Part shown: piece after piece, positions 46,421 through 53,411 of the stretch
Layout: every line of letters begins with the position of its first letter
Numbering within the stretch: position 1 is the stretch's first letter
Assembly: GCA_000961595.1 (NCBI GenBank)
Contig: LADO01000008.1
Coordinates: 1-53,484 of the forward strand
DNA: 53,484 nucleotides
Reading direction: 5' to 3'
Origin: Peptococcaceae bacterium BRH_c4b
GTDB lineage: Bacteria; Bacillota; Desulfotomaculia; Desulfotomaculales; Desulfocucumaceae
Made by a program: the position numbers and the translations under genes
Notes under the pieces: generated by a model
Seen by the model: the letters and a program-made list of their open reading frames with translations, nothing else
Databases searched by the model: none
Told to the model about the DNA's origin: nothing

Positions 46421-46462
46421 ATTCCCAAAGATTTGTGATACAATAAAGGTGAGGTGATTGTA

Positions 46463-46681
46463 ATGAAAAAATATAATTTTACAATCCTGATAGAAAAAGA
46501 TGAAGATGGCATGTATATTGGGTCAGTTCCAGCTCTAAGAGGTTGCCATACACAGGCAAAGACTGTTGAAGAATTGTTCCCAAGGATAAAAGAGGCCATT
46601 GAGCTTTGCCTGGAAGTAGAACAGGATGAACTGCTGCAGAATGAGTTTGTAGGTGTTCAACAGATTGAGATAGTGATATGA
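46463..46681 (+). CDS. hicB: HicB-type antitoxin
   Basis: The 72-aa protein has the HicB partial RNase H fold: KKYNFTILIEKDEDGMYIGS, VPALRGCHTQAKTVEELF and IKEAIELCLE. Short HicB forms lack a separate DNA-binding domain; this one ends at QQIEIVI, so autoregulation may involve the HicA-HicB complex. AAAGGTGAGGTG precedes the ATG at 46463. It overlaps hicA by ATGA. Confidence 0.9.
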   Translation: MKKYNFTILIEKDEDGMYIGSVPALRGCHTQAKTVEELFPRIKEAIELCLEVEQDELLQNEFVGVQQIEIVI

Positions 46682-46908
46682 GCAGGCTAACCATAATTTC
46701 CTCTAAGGACATGCTAAGAATATTAGAAATGCTGGGGTTTAAGGAGATCAGGCAGAAAGGTAGTCATAAGCACTTCAGGCATAGAGATGGAAGAACAACT
46801 CTTGTCCCGTTTCATGGCGAAGATCTGGCAAGAGGCTTAATAAGAAAAATACTGAAAGATATTGAAGTTTCTGTAGAGGAATATGAAAAGTTAAGAAAAC
46901 AAATTTAA
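46678..46908 (+). CDS. hicA: HicA-type mRNA interferase toxin
   Basis: The 76-aa protein has the dsRBD-like HicA fold with the catalytic H30 in KGSHKHFRH and VPFHGEDLARGLIRKILKDI. HicA cleaves mRNA and is neutralised by HicB. The antitoxin-first order is the alternative arrangement to the classic hicAB. Four-base overlap with hicB gives coupling. The terminator overlaps its stop codon. Confidence 0.92.
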   Translation: MSRLTIISSKDMLRILEMLGFKEIRQKGSHKHFRHRDGRTTLVPFHGEDLARGLIRKILKDIEVSVEEYEKLRKQI

Positions 46909-49809: not shown

Positions 49810-49918
49810 CAAGTTCGAATATGAAGTGCGTTTCAACAATATGTTAAAGGCACCCGGTATAGGGGTTACCTTTATTAACCATTCTCCTTGACGCAGATTT
49901 CCCTGCGGCTTATAATTA

Positions 49919-49948
49919 TAATAGCTAATTTAGCTATTATAGCTATTT
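49919..49948. promoter_or_regulatory. TAGCTA iterons upstream of the Phd-Uma2 gene
   Basis: A perfect palindrome TAATAGCTA-ATT-TAGCTATTA (49919-49939) is part of three direct 9-base steps, TAGCTAATT, TAGCTATTA and TAGCTATTT (49922-49948). It lies just before GGGAGGTG of the fusion gene. Phd/YefM proteins bind palindromes at their own promoters, so this is a probable operator. Confidence 0.75.
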
Positions 49949-49962
49949 CGGGAGGTGCGTTC

Positions 49963-50700
49963 ATGAAAGTCAACTCAACGGAGTTGCAGAACAACTTCGG
50001 AAAATACCTGATGCTTGCAGCGCAGGAGGATATCATAATTACGCGAAACGGTATGGAAATAGCAAAACTGTCGGCCATAAGAGATGTGGTCTCAGATCAC
50101 GGCGCGGTGCCCGGCACGGTAATGGAAAAGGCGGTAGTATACGGTTACGGCGGCAGAAAGGCATCCTACGAGGAGTTTCTGGAATTGACCAGAGATACCG
50201 AAGAAAGATACGAATACATTGATGGTGAGATATACCAGCTGGCCTCACCTAAAACCGCGCACCAGACAACTTTAACCGAACTTTTTGTGATTTTTTACAA
50301 TTGGTTTCAGGGGAAAAAGTGTATTACCCTGATTGCCCCTTATGATATTACACTCAAAAGAAGCCCAGAGAATATTAATGTTGTCCAGCCCGATATCATG
50401 GTCATTTGCGACCTTGAGGAAAAGTTGGATGAAAACGACTATTACAAGGGTATTCCGGCACTTGTGGTGGAGATTTTGTCAGAGAGTACGCGGAGCAAGG
50501 ATTTGGTAAAAAAGCTTGACTTATACATGTCATGCGATGTCAGTGAATACTGGATTGTGAACCCGATAAGCAAAGAAGTTACCGTTTATCTTTTTGAAGA
50601 CAAAAACATCAGCAGAAATATCACTTACAGAAAACACGAGATCGTGCAGTCCTACTTTTTTGAAGGATTATGCGCAGAGCTTGACAGAGTCTTTAAATAG
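49963..50700 (+). CDS. Phd/YefM antitoxin-like domain fused to Uma2 nuclease-like domain
   Basis: The 245-aa protein joins two domains. Residues 1-40 (KVNSTELQNNFGKYLMLAAQ, EDIIITRNGMEIAKLS) are the Phd/YefM DNA-binding antitoxin fold. Residues 67-240 are a Uma2 (DUF820) PD-(D/E)xK nuclease-like domain with YIDGEIYQLASP, QPDIMVICDLEE (D144), ALVVEILSESTRSKDLVKKL (E170, K183) and EYWIVNP. All candidate metal-binding residues are present. GGGAGGTG fixes the ATG at 49963. It has no toxin partner. It may be a self-regulated nuclease; the function of Uma2 proteins is poorly known. Confidence 0.85.
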   Translation: MKVNSTELQNNFGKYLMLAAQEDIIITRNGMEIAKLSAIRDVVSDHGAVPGTVMEKAVVYGYGGRKASYEEFLELTRDTEERYEYIDGEIYQLASPKTAHQTTLTELFVIFYNWFQGKKCITLIAPYDITLKRSPENINVVQPDIMVICDLEEKLDENDYYKGIPALVVEILSESTRSKDLVKKLDLYMSCDVSEYWIVNPISKEVTVYLFEDKNISRNITYRKHEIVQSYFFEGLCAELDRVFK

Positions 50701-51153: not shown

Positions 51154-51348
51154 TTTTCATTTCCCTCTTCTTTTTCTCCCCAAGCACGTGTCCGATCAAA
51201 CCTCGCAATATCAGGCGCAATTGTCTTTTTGCTTCCAGCAGCGGCTCCCGCACTTCTTCCGGCAGTTTTCCAAGCGCTCTTTTTTCCATTAACCGGTGAA
51301 TTTTCTGCAGGTTTTAACAAAGCATTCACCGCAGTCTCTGTCCGCCAT
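51128..51348 (-). pseudogene. Small Cys-rich protein after arsA, frameshifted
   Basis: The frame from ATG 51348 reads MADRDCGECFVKTCRKF and then stops, while the next frame reads KIHRLMEKRALGKLPEEVRE, PLLEAKRQLRLILRGLIGHV and LGEKKKREMKNETKLLFT to the stop at 51128. One extra A in the run AGAAAATTC would fuse them into a 73-aa protein. Its start lies within the last codons of arsA, so both are co-transcribed. Function unknown; three cysteines within ten residues suggest metal or arsenite-like binding. Confidence 0.6.
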
Positions 51349-52517
51349 TTTTCATACCCCCAAACTTTATTTTCAACACGCCGGCATCTAACTTCGCTCC
51401 AACGGCGTCCCTGCCCAGAAGTTTACGGGGCAAAAAGATATTTCGCTTATAATCTCCTACCCTGACGGTCAGCTCATCCCCCTTCTGGGATAGTGAGATA
51501 TCCACTTTCTCCACAAAGGGCAGAGTCAATTCCAACACATAGCCGTTTTCAGCCTGCCTAATCTTTTGTGTTTGCCCGCAGAAAAAGAACTTTTCGGGAG
51601 GTTTTTTTCCAAAATACGCACTGCCCATTTTTTCAAGAGCTTCAAAACCTACCACTTCCTCCATGAATAACGGCACGGTAAAGACAGGTACCGGACTGAA
51701 CTGGTCTTTGATGTACCGGAAGTAGGTATGGTGAACTTCCCCCCATTTTTCGAAGTACTGTCCCAGGTTTTCGGAAGGCAGCAACCGGTTGACAATCACG
51801 GCGTCCGTATTGAATCCATACAGGTTCAAATACATAAAGCTCCTTTCGGCTTCCCTGATGACCATTTTCTCCGGATTCACCACGATCCTGACGGAAGTAA
51901 TCTCCTGGTCGGTCAACACCTCATGCATTTTCCTAAGTTGTTGAAACAGCTCTGCAATACTGACCATGTTATCATCACCCGGCAGAGGCACTCCAAACAA
52001 CGGTTTGGATATAGGGCGGGCAATTTTTAAAAGGAGTTTTTCAACCGGGAAGATCTTTTCCAGCCACCACCTGAGGACATCGGGAAAACTGAGCAACCTG
52101 AGGGTTTCACCCGTGGGAGCACAGTCGACGATGACAACATCGTATTTCCCTTCCTTGCAGTGGTTAAGGATTTCGAGCAAGCTGAAAAGCTCCTCCAGTC
52201 CCGGGAAAACAACCAGTTCATCGGCAGTTATGTCTTTTATATTCTGGGATATGAGCAGTGCCGAAAGATATTCCTGCACCTTGCCCCAGCTCTTCTCCGC
52301 GCTGAACAAGGCGCTAATTTCCTGAGCCCAAAGGTTTTCCCGTATTTTTACCGGCTCATAGTTTAAGTTCCAGGTCAAAAGAATCACCAAGGCTGTGTGC
52401 GGCGTCCGTGCTGACCACTATGGTCTTTTCCCCCGATGCGGCAGAGGCAACGGCAGTTGCAGCGGCCAAACTGGTCTTCCCGACACCGCCTTTTCCTGTG
52501 TAGAGAATAATCCTCAC
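51326..52517 (-). pseudogene. arsA: ArsA/GET3-family ATPase with HSP20-like tail, one frameshift
   Basis: The N-terminal part, from GTG 52517, has the deviant Walker [20 protein letters not shown] and [16 protein letters not shown], then a stop. The remainder lies in the next frame from [20 protein letters not shown], with VVIVDCAPTGETLRLL, IVVNPEKMVIREAERSFMYL and INRLLP-like text. It ends in an alpha-crystallin-like domain (LELTLPFVEKVDISLSQKGD, KRNIFLPRKLLG). One extra A in CTTAAACTATGAG (near 52372) would explain the break. Bacterial ArsA homologues with such tails are not necessarily arsenite pumps; no arsB or arsR is nearby. Confidence 0.8.
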
Positions 52518-52633
52518 CCTTAGCACTCCCCCTAAAATCTTCAATTCATTTATTACCCTTACCGTAAATTTCGATTAATGATTATTTTATATTACGAAAT
52601 ATTTATGGAAAAAATTTTACACAGTACTTTGCA

Positions 52634-53087: not shown

Positions 53088-53411
53088 ATGAAAAAGCGAA
53101 ACCATTATTCAGCCGAATTTAAAAGCAAGGTGGTCCTGGAGGTGTTGCAGGAAGCCTCCACTGTCAATGAAATCGCCGCTAAGTATGGTATAAGCCCTGT
53201 GGTTATCGGCCGCTGGAAAAGCGAGTTTCTGGAACGAGCTGCCGAGGTGTTTAAAAAAGGCCCCTCCTCAGCCGAAAAGGAACTGGAAGAAAAGAACGAG
53301 AGAGTGGCCCAGTTAGAGCGTAAAGTCGGTCAGCTCACCTGCGAGGTGGACTGGCTCAAAAAAAAATCTGAAGAAATTATCGGACCAGACTGGAAGAAAA
53401 GATTTCGTTGA
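53088..53411 (+). CDS. IS3-family OrfA (transposase HTH subunit)
   Basis: The 107-aa protein has the HTH_Tnp_1 pattern: YSAEFKSKVVLEVLQE, EIAAKYGISPVVIGRWKSEF and a leucine-rich coiled coil, KNERVAQLERKVGQLTCEVD, ending with WLKKKSEE. OrfA binds the element's ends and is joined to OrfB by frameshifting. A run of nine A at 53358-53366 in the LKKK codons is the probable slip site. It starts 38 bases inside the IS end. Confidence 0.9.
   Translation: MKKRNHYSAEFKSKVVLEVLQEASTVNEIAAKYGISPVVIGRWKSEFLERAAEVFKKGPSSAEKELEEKNERVAQLERKVGQLTCEVDWLKKKSEEIIGPDWKKRFR

Follow-up and report, generated by a model that had tools for sequence, protein, structure and literature searches.

What might a single protein do that joins the DNA-binding domain of an antitoxin to a nuclease-like domain and is encoded directly behind a row of short palindromic repeats? 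This question is raised by phd-uma2, a gene on the forward strand of a 53,484-nucleotide stretch of Peptococcaceae bacterium BRH_c4b DNA (contig LADO01000008.1, positions 1 to 53,484; the window), whose product carries a Phd/YefM-type domain at its N-terminus and a Uma2 domain at its C-terminus. Comparative analysis suggests that it is probably a one-gene, self-repressing nuclease cassette, in which the N-terminal domain would hold down expression of the nuclease to which it is attached. The features on which this reading turns are the following:

49888..49916, forward strand: predicted sigma-70 promoter, TTGACG (49888-49893), 17-bp spacer, TATAAT (49911-49916), 11/12 consensus matches
49920..49946, strandless: predicted operator of three 9-bp repeats, AATAGCTAA / TTTAGCTAT / TATAGCTAT, each with one TAGCTA palindrome
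49922-49927, 49931-49936 and 49940-49945: the TAGCTA hexamers, at a pitch of 9, the first starting 5 bp past the -10 box; DNA proposed as the partner of a Phd dimer, TTTAGCTAATTTAGCTAA
49950..49957, forward strand: Shine-Dalgarno sequence GGGAGGTG, from a direct reading of the letters
49963..50700, forward strand: phd-uma2 fusion gene, 245 amino acids, ATG at 49963 and stop codon at 50698-50700, supported by domain matches and 65 further intact homologues
49963..50076, forward strand: Phd/YefM-type DNA-binding domain, residues 1-38, predicted beta-alpha-alpha-beta-beta
50080..50148, forward strand: flexible linker, residues 40-62, variable in sequence and length, with a predicted local distance difference test score (pLDDT) below 50
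50152..50697, forward strand: Uma2/COG4636 PD-(D/E)XK-like domain, residues 64-245, with H100, D144, E170 and K184 as predicted catalytic residues
50721..50750, forward strand: terminator-like hairpin of the intrinsic type followed by a T run, 3' of the stop codon

A conserved fusion of Phd and Uma2 domains

The original prediction, made from the letters of this DNA, described an antitoxin-type domain fused to a complete Uma2 domain, and profile and structure comparisons bear this out. The Uma2 part matches PF05685 over residues 70-228 (112.8 bits; cut-off 27), and its predicted model aligns with all four solved Uma2/DUF820 structures, 6okh, 9y1l, 1wdj and 3ot2, at Z-scores of 20-24 (23.7 for 6okh, 20.2 for 1wdj), values that place it in the restriction-endonuclease-like fold. 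Residues 2-41 match Phd_YefM (PF02604) with 27.1 bits, slightly under the cut-off of 29.8, and the NCBIfam profile phd_fam (TIGR01552) with 22.3 bits, above its cut-off of 20.8. Over its first 41 residues the model fits the N-domain of VapB46 (6jqy; Z 6.7, rmsd 1.4), and the DNA-binding domain of P1 Phd (4zlx) matches it with a Z of 5.8, with further Phd/YefM entries among the structure matches; these Z-scores are modest because the domain is small. The Phd_YefM profile alignment stops at position 44 of 74, and what follows is a linker of about 24-36 residues in nearly all members. The AlphaFold2 model built with 66 homologues has a mean pLDDT of 86, with residues 40-62 disordered, and mean conservation follows the same boundaries (0.84 for the Phd part, 0.77 for Uma2 and 0.40 for the linker).

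The homologues come from a single search of 84,980 species genomes with short peptide patterns, which skews the set toward close relatives. It yielded 68 loci with relatives, nearly all in Bacillota and spread over dozens of species, of which 65 are intact fusions; these and the window gene form the set of 66 used below, and 50 representatives of less than 85% identity form its non-redundant version. All 66 aligned proteins match both Pfam families (E up to 0.01). The domain pair, first noticed in one genome, is thus held by at least 66 intact genes.

H100, D144, E170 and K184 are identical in 66/66 homologues, and the numbering of D144 and E170 in the original prediction is correct. For COG4636, Feder and Bujnicki (PMC551604) described an H-PD-EXX-K site in which the lysine has migrated, and the four residues fit it; the fusion shares both fold and H-PD-E...K residues with the solved Uma2 proteins. 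In nearly all pairs of close homologues the ratio of nonsynonymous to synonymous substitution rates (dN/dS) lies at about 0.1-0.2, and purifying selection acts on the Uma2 domain. Taken together, this conservation suggests that the Uma2 domain of the fusion is probably an active nuclease. The PADLOC candidate PDC-S03 matches the Uma2 part with an E-value of 6e-58; this label covers Uma2 proteins generally, its profile of 188 positions spans Uma2 alone, and we found no paper for the candidate.

The TAGCTA operator and its link to the fusion gene

The promoter layout of phd-uma2 is repeated upstream of most homologues. TAGCTA-N3-TAGCTA precedes 52 of the 66 fusion genes and three hexamers in a row precede 23 of them, against a mean of 0.01 pairs in dinucleotide shuffles; among the 50 representatives the pair occurs in 38 and the triple row in 18. 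The repeats seen in the window are thus kept in most of the homologues, and in a fixed register: successive TAGCTA spacings are exactly 9 bp in 56 of 62 cases, and in the 46 representatives that have an exact site the first one lies 5 bp past the -10 box in 26 and 14 bp past it (5+9, one repeat later) in a further 8, for a total of 34/46. The original prediction had described a palindrome together with three 9-base repeats and had called the latter iterons. The repeats are real, but the palindrome does not stand as a separate feature, since each hexamer is itself palindromic and the hexamers lie in a row; moreover, they are better read as operator repeats. Plasmid-type iterons were considered and rejected, as the repeats sit between the -10 box and the ribosome-binding site of one gene and nowhere else in the genome, and nothing suggestive of a replication origin is seen at them.

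The pair is tied to the fusion gene in cis. In the 3.62-Mb genome containing the window, TAGCTA-N3-TAGCTA occurs at the phd-uma2 promoter and nowhere else, and none of the 15 other Phd-type matches above the family cut-off has it (0/15). In a survey of 113 genomes of the class, the pair is present in each of the nine that contain a close fusion, in every case at the fusion promoter, compared with 12 of the 104 without a close fusion that have it anywhere (Fisher p 5e-8); one of these 12 (L151) contains a decayed fusion whose operator survives. Elsewhere in the fusion genomes no pair was seen, but with only about one expected this does not speak for avoidance. For the exact pattern, a regulon in trans is excluded in the nine genomes.

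Two observations bear on how the operator may be read. In a divergent Phd-Uma2 fusion (L139, reverse strand, genome G112), the three TAGCTA of the promoter recur every 22 bp, roughly two turns of the helix, and this suggests that what is read is the single hexamer. Position 9 of the protein, which we take to align with Arg10 of YefM, a DNA-contacting residue, carries Lys rather than Gln in L054, L058 and L059, and the exact pair is absent in all three (3/3 versus 11/63, p 0.008); Lys-Asn is also found there in the distant fusions L134 and L142, neither of which has the pair. The association of residue 9 with the operator pair is suggestive only, because related sequences are not independent.

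The same operator layout has been characterized experimentally for an unrelated repressor. RptR represses an Escherichia coli island with type I restriction and DarTG2 (RRDM); this all-helical protein of 79 residues binds three 9-bp TAGCTA repeats, of which two sites are enough (PMC12255303); we read this operator in E. coli E2348/69 (L170). As RptR represses through it, the 9-bp TAGCTA layout is proven to be workable for a dimeric repressor (PMC12255303). Both RptR and the fusion have three such repeats at the promoter, and RptR represses its own expression upstream of a DNA-cutting system. However, RptR (HTH_73, PF24718) is encoded by a gene of its own apart from the nuclease, and its repeats overlap the -10 box, whereas those of the fusion come after it. 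The fusion has no sequence similarity to RptR, its Pfam matches being Uma2 and Phd_YefM only. The shared layout looks like convergence, and it could partly be coincidence, only 64 hexamer palindromes existing. With this proven precedent added to the comparative evidence, autorepression by Phd-Uma2 appears very likely, and the same evidence backs the proposal in the original prediction of a single protein that represses its own promoter, unlike a two-gene toxin-antitoxin system.

A solitary transcription unit

Judging from the sequence, phd-uma2 is a solo transcription unit. The TTGACG-17-TATAAT elements and the hairpin with its T run give it a predicted promoter and terminator of its own, and since no neighboring gene is conserved it is better described as a solo unit than as a two-gene toxin-antitoxin operon. 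No conserved partner gene was found in 67 loci, the top family, ABC transporters, occurring in at most 11/67, and the orientation of neighbors is random (same strand in 21/45 and 17/42). Type II toxin-antitoxin operons differ in having adjacent antitoxin and toxin genes, and their antitoxins have a toxin-binding C-terminal segment in the place of which the fusion has the disordered linker and Uma2. The fusion thus fails the two-gene definition of a toxin-antitoxin system, and we treat it instead as a Uma2 variant, a regulator-nuclease fusion.

Between some species the homology includes little beyond the promoter-to-stop segment (from -94 to 734 for L017 and L018), and the blocks of synteny in L053/L065 and L017/L021 flank the gene on different sides. 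A cassette that moves independently would be expected to leave this pattern; no mechanism for such movement was found. Carriage as phage or plasmid cargo was considered and rejected, as the plasmid and phage collections contain no complete fusion, and viral contigs gave Phd-type matches only. Most of the 87 nearest neighbors belong to ABC transporters, hydrolases and other ordinary families; PADLOC matches among them, compared with no control set, are scattered and fall in many cases on generic ATPases. In this uncontrolled comparison the neighbors give no clear signal of linkage to defence islands. For an effect on phage or plasmid entry, the general Uma2 label PDC-S03 is the one positive pointer. 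We consider it somewhat less likely than not that the main role is to defend against foreign DNA.

Several other elements occur around the gene. A HicB-like/HicA pair lies at 46454-46905 (forward strand) of the window, about 3 kb upstream of phd-uma2, with the antitoxin gene leading. An ArsA-type ATPase is broken across two frames at 51326-52544 (reverse strand): its P-loop part occupies 52356-52544 and the remainder (Pfam ArsA from profile position 51) resumes in the other frame near 52360, a split that may reflect a frameshift, decay or a sequencing error. At 53088-53411 (forward strand) an open reading frame resembles, by eye, an IS3-type transposase OrfA.

Relatives, decay and related architectures

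In a tree of Uma2 domains nearly all fusions fall into one group, on a weakly supported branch and with L139, L112 and two split fragments clouding the grouping; the tree is compatible with a single origin of the fusions but does not establish one. Among decayed or deleted copies, L071 and L072 have lost the nuclease core and kept the Phd part and operator remnants. In L072 (4001-4189) an in-frame deletion leaves the Phd domain and the last 17 residues, and this remnant may persist as a bare repressor. A tandem of two Phd-Uma2 genes, L134/L144, the second truncated, lies on C337 of genome G015, a genome that has four divergent fusions without the TAGCTA pair. In genome G005, of the same family as the window genome, a Uma2 protein (L113) has an N-terminal HTH_17, a second type of DNA-binding domain.

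Ordinary Uma2 proteins, including three in the window genome (L001-L003), have neither the Phd domain nor the operator pair. Phd/YefM antitoxins such as VapB46, P1 Phd and Sa2YefM resemble the fusion in having palindromic operators at their promoters and differ from it in having a partner toxin gene and, at the C-terminus, a neutralising half. Among stand-alone Phd genes the nearest ones (about 42-56% identity) are without the TAGCTA pair and, where readable, lie by eye upstream of PIN-like toxin genes. In HTH-PD-(D/E)XK fusions such as NaeI and COG1395, as here, a sequence-reading domain is joined to PD-(D/E)XK, in these cases through other DNA-binding folds and with no Phd domain (PMC1189080). 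The titles, abstract openings and passages of the open literature on Uma2, DUF820 and COG4636 do not describe a Phd-Uma2 fusion; papers elsewhere may.

A proposed self-repressing nuclease and its alternatives

We propose that the N-terminal Phd-type domain dimerises and, as the conservation of the repeats suggests, that one dimer would bind each TAGCTA palindrome. Up to three dimers would then be aligned at the 9-bp pitch over the transcription start, just past the -10 box, and so obstruct the promoter. The Uma2 domain, held on its flexible linker, would probably be an active DNase, acting most likely on foreign or damaged DNA. Fusing repressor and nuclease in this manner would hold the nuclease dose low and make it self-correcting: a rise in the protein would switch its own promoter off, and expression would return once the repressor domain is diluted, proteolysed or titrated. 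With dose control alone doing the work of a neutralising antitoxin, a partner gene would not be needed.

Several points weigh against this. The exact pair is missing in 14 of the 66 homologues, most of which have a version with 1-2 mismatches, and L027, L052 and L059 have no recognisable operator. The Pfam Phd score of the window protein falls just short of its cut-off. Moreover, no enzymatic activity of any Uma2 protein is demonstrated in the literature searched, so that Uma2 could serve another purpose, and the gene is dispensable, given that three recorded copies (L071, L072 and L151) are decayed or deleted.

One alternative is a toxin-antitoxin system in cis, in which the Phd domain neutralises a Uma2 toxin within the same chain until its proteolysis frees the toxin. 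Phd domains act as antitoxins elsewhere, the linker is exposed and disordered, and Makarova et al. named Uma2 a likely solo toxin, rarely found with antitoxins (PMC2701414). However, the neutralising part of Phd antitoxins lies in the C-terminal half that is absent here, no toxicity is known, and the model has a flexible linker with no sign of a bound inhibitor segment, which together make this version unlikely. A second possibility is that the protein is a pure autoregulator or DNA-binding scaffold, with a non-cutting Uma2 that serves in oligomerisation or in sensing DNA ends or modified DNA. Inactive PD-(D/E)XK folds are known (PMC551604), and the lack of a demonstrated Uma2 activity and the better conservation of the Phd part would suit such a role; set against it, the invariance of the predicted catalytic residues and the purifying selection on Uma2 make it rather improbable. 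Alternatively, Uma2 could be led by the Phd domain to invading DNA that carries TAGCTA arrays, the copies in front of the fusion gene serving repression. A predicted sequence-specific domain on a flexible linker would suit targeting, as would the joining of HTH_17 to Uma2 in L113, but the nuclease would then cut its own gene, which the site adjoins, and the pair is rare in genomes generally, so that invaders would seldom carry it; we consider such targeting quite improbable. That the operator belongs instead to another repressor acting in trans, for instance an RptR homologue, with the Phd domain having another job, is highly improbable: RptR does bind exactly such a layout in E. coli (PMC12255303), but the window genome has no RptR-like match (best E 0.8), the 113 class genomes gave no HTH_73 match in a search whose controls were equally silent, and the operator accompanies the fusion gene and the fusion gene only.

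Implications

The proposed self-repressing nuclease cassette could be read more boldly, although we offer this as a doubtful extension: as a portable one-gene immunity module whose operator occupancy is the sensor, such that titration or degradation of the repressor, for example during phage takeover, would raise the nuclease dose, and whose TAGCTA code would be shared by convergence with RptR restriction islands. In any case, unrelated repressors of a predicted and a known DNA-cutting system, the fusion and RptR, share a three-repeat TAGCTA layout. Uma2 proteins are abundant and unexplained, and here one of them is joined to a conserved DNA-binding domain and operator that are readily testable; such simple tests would provide the first functional handle on a branch of the Uma2 proteins.
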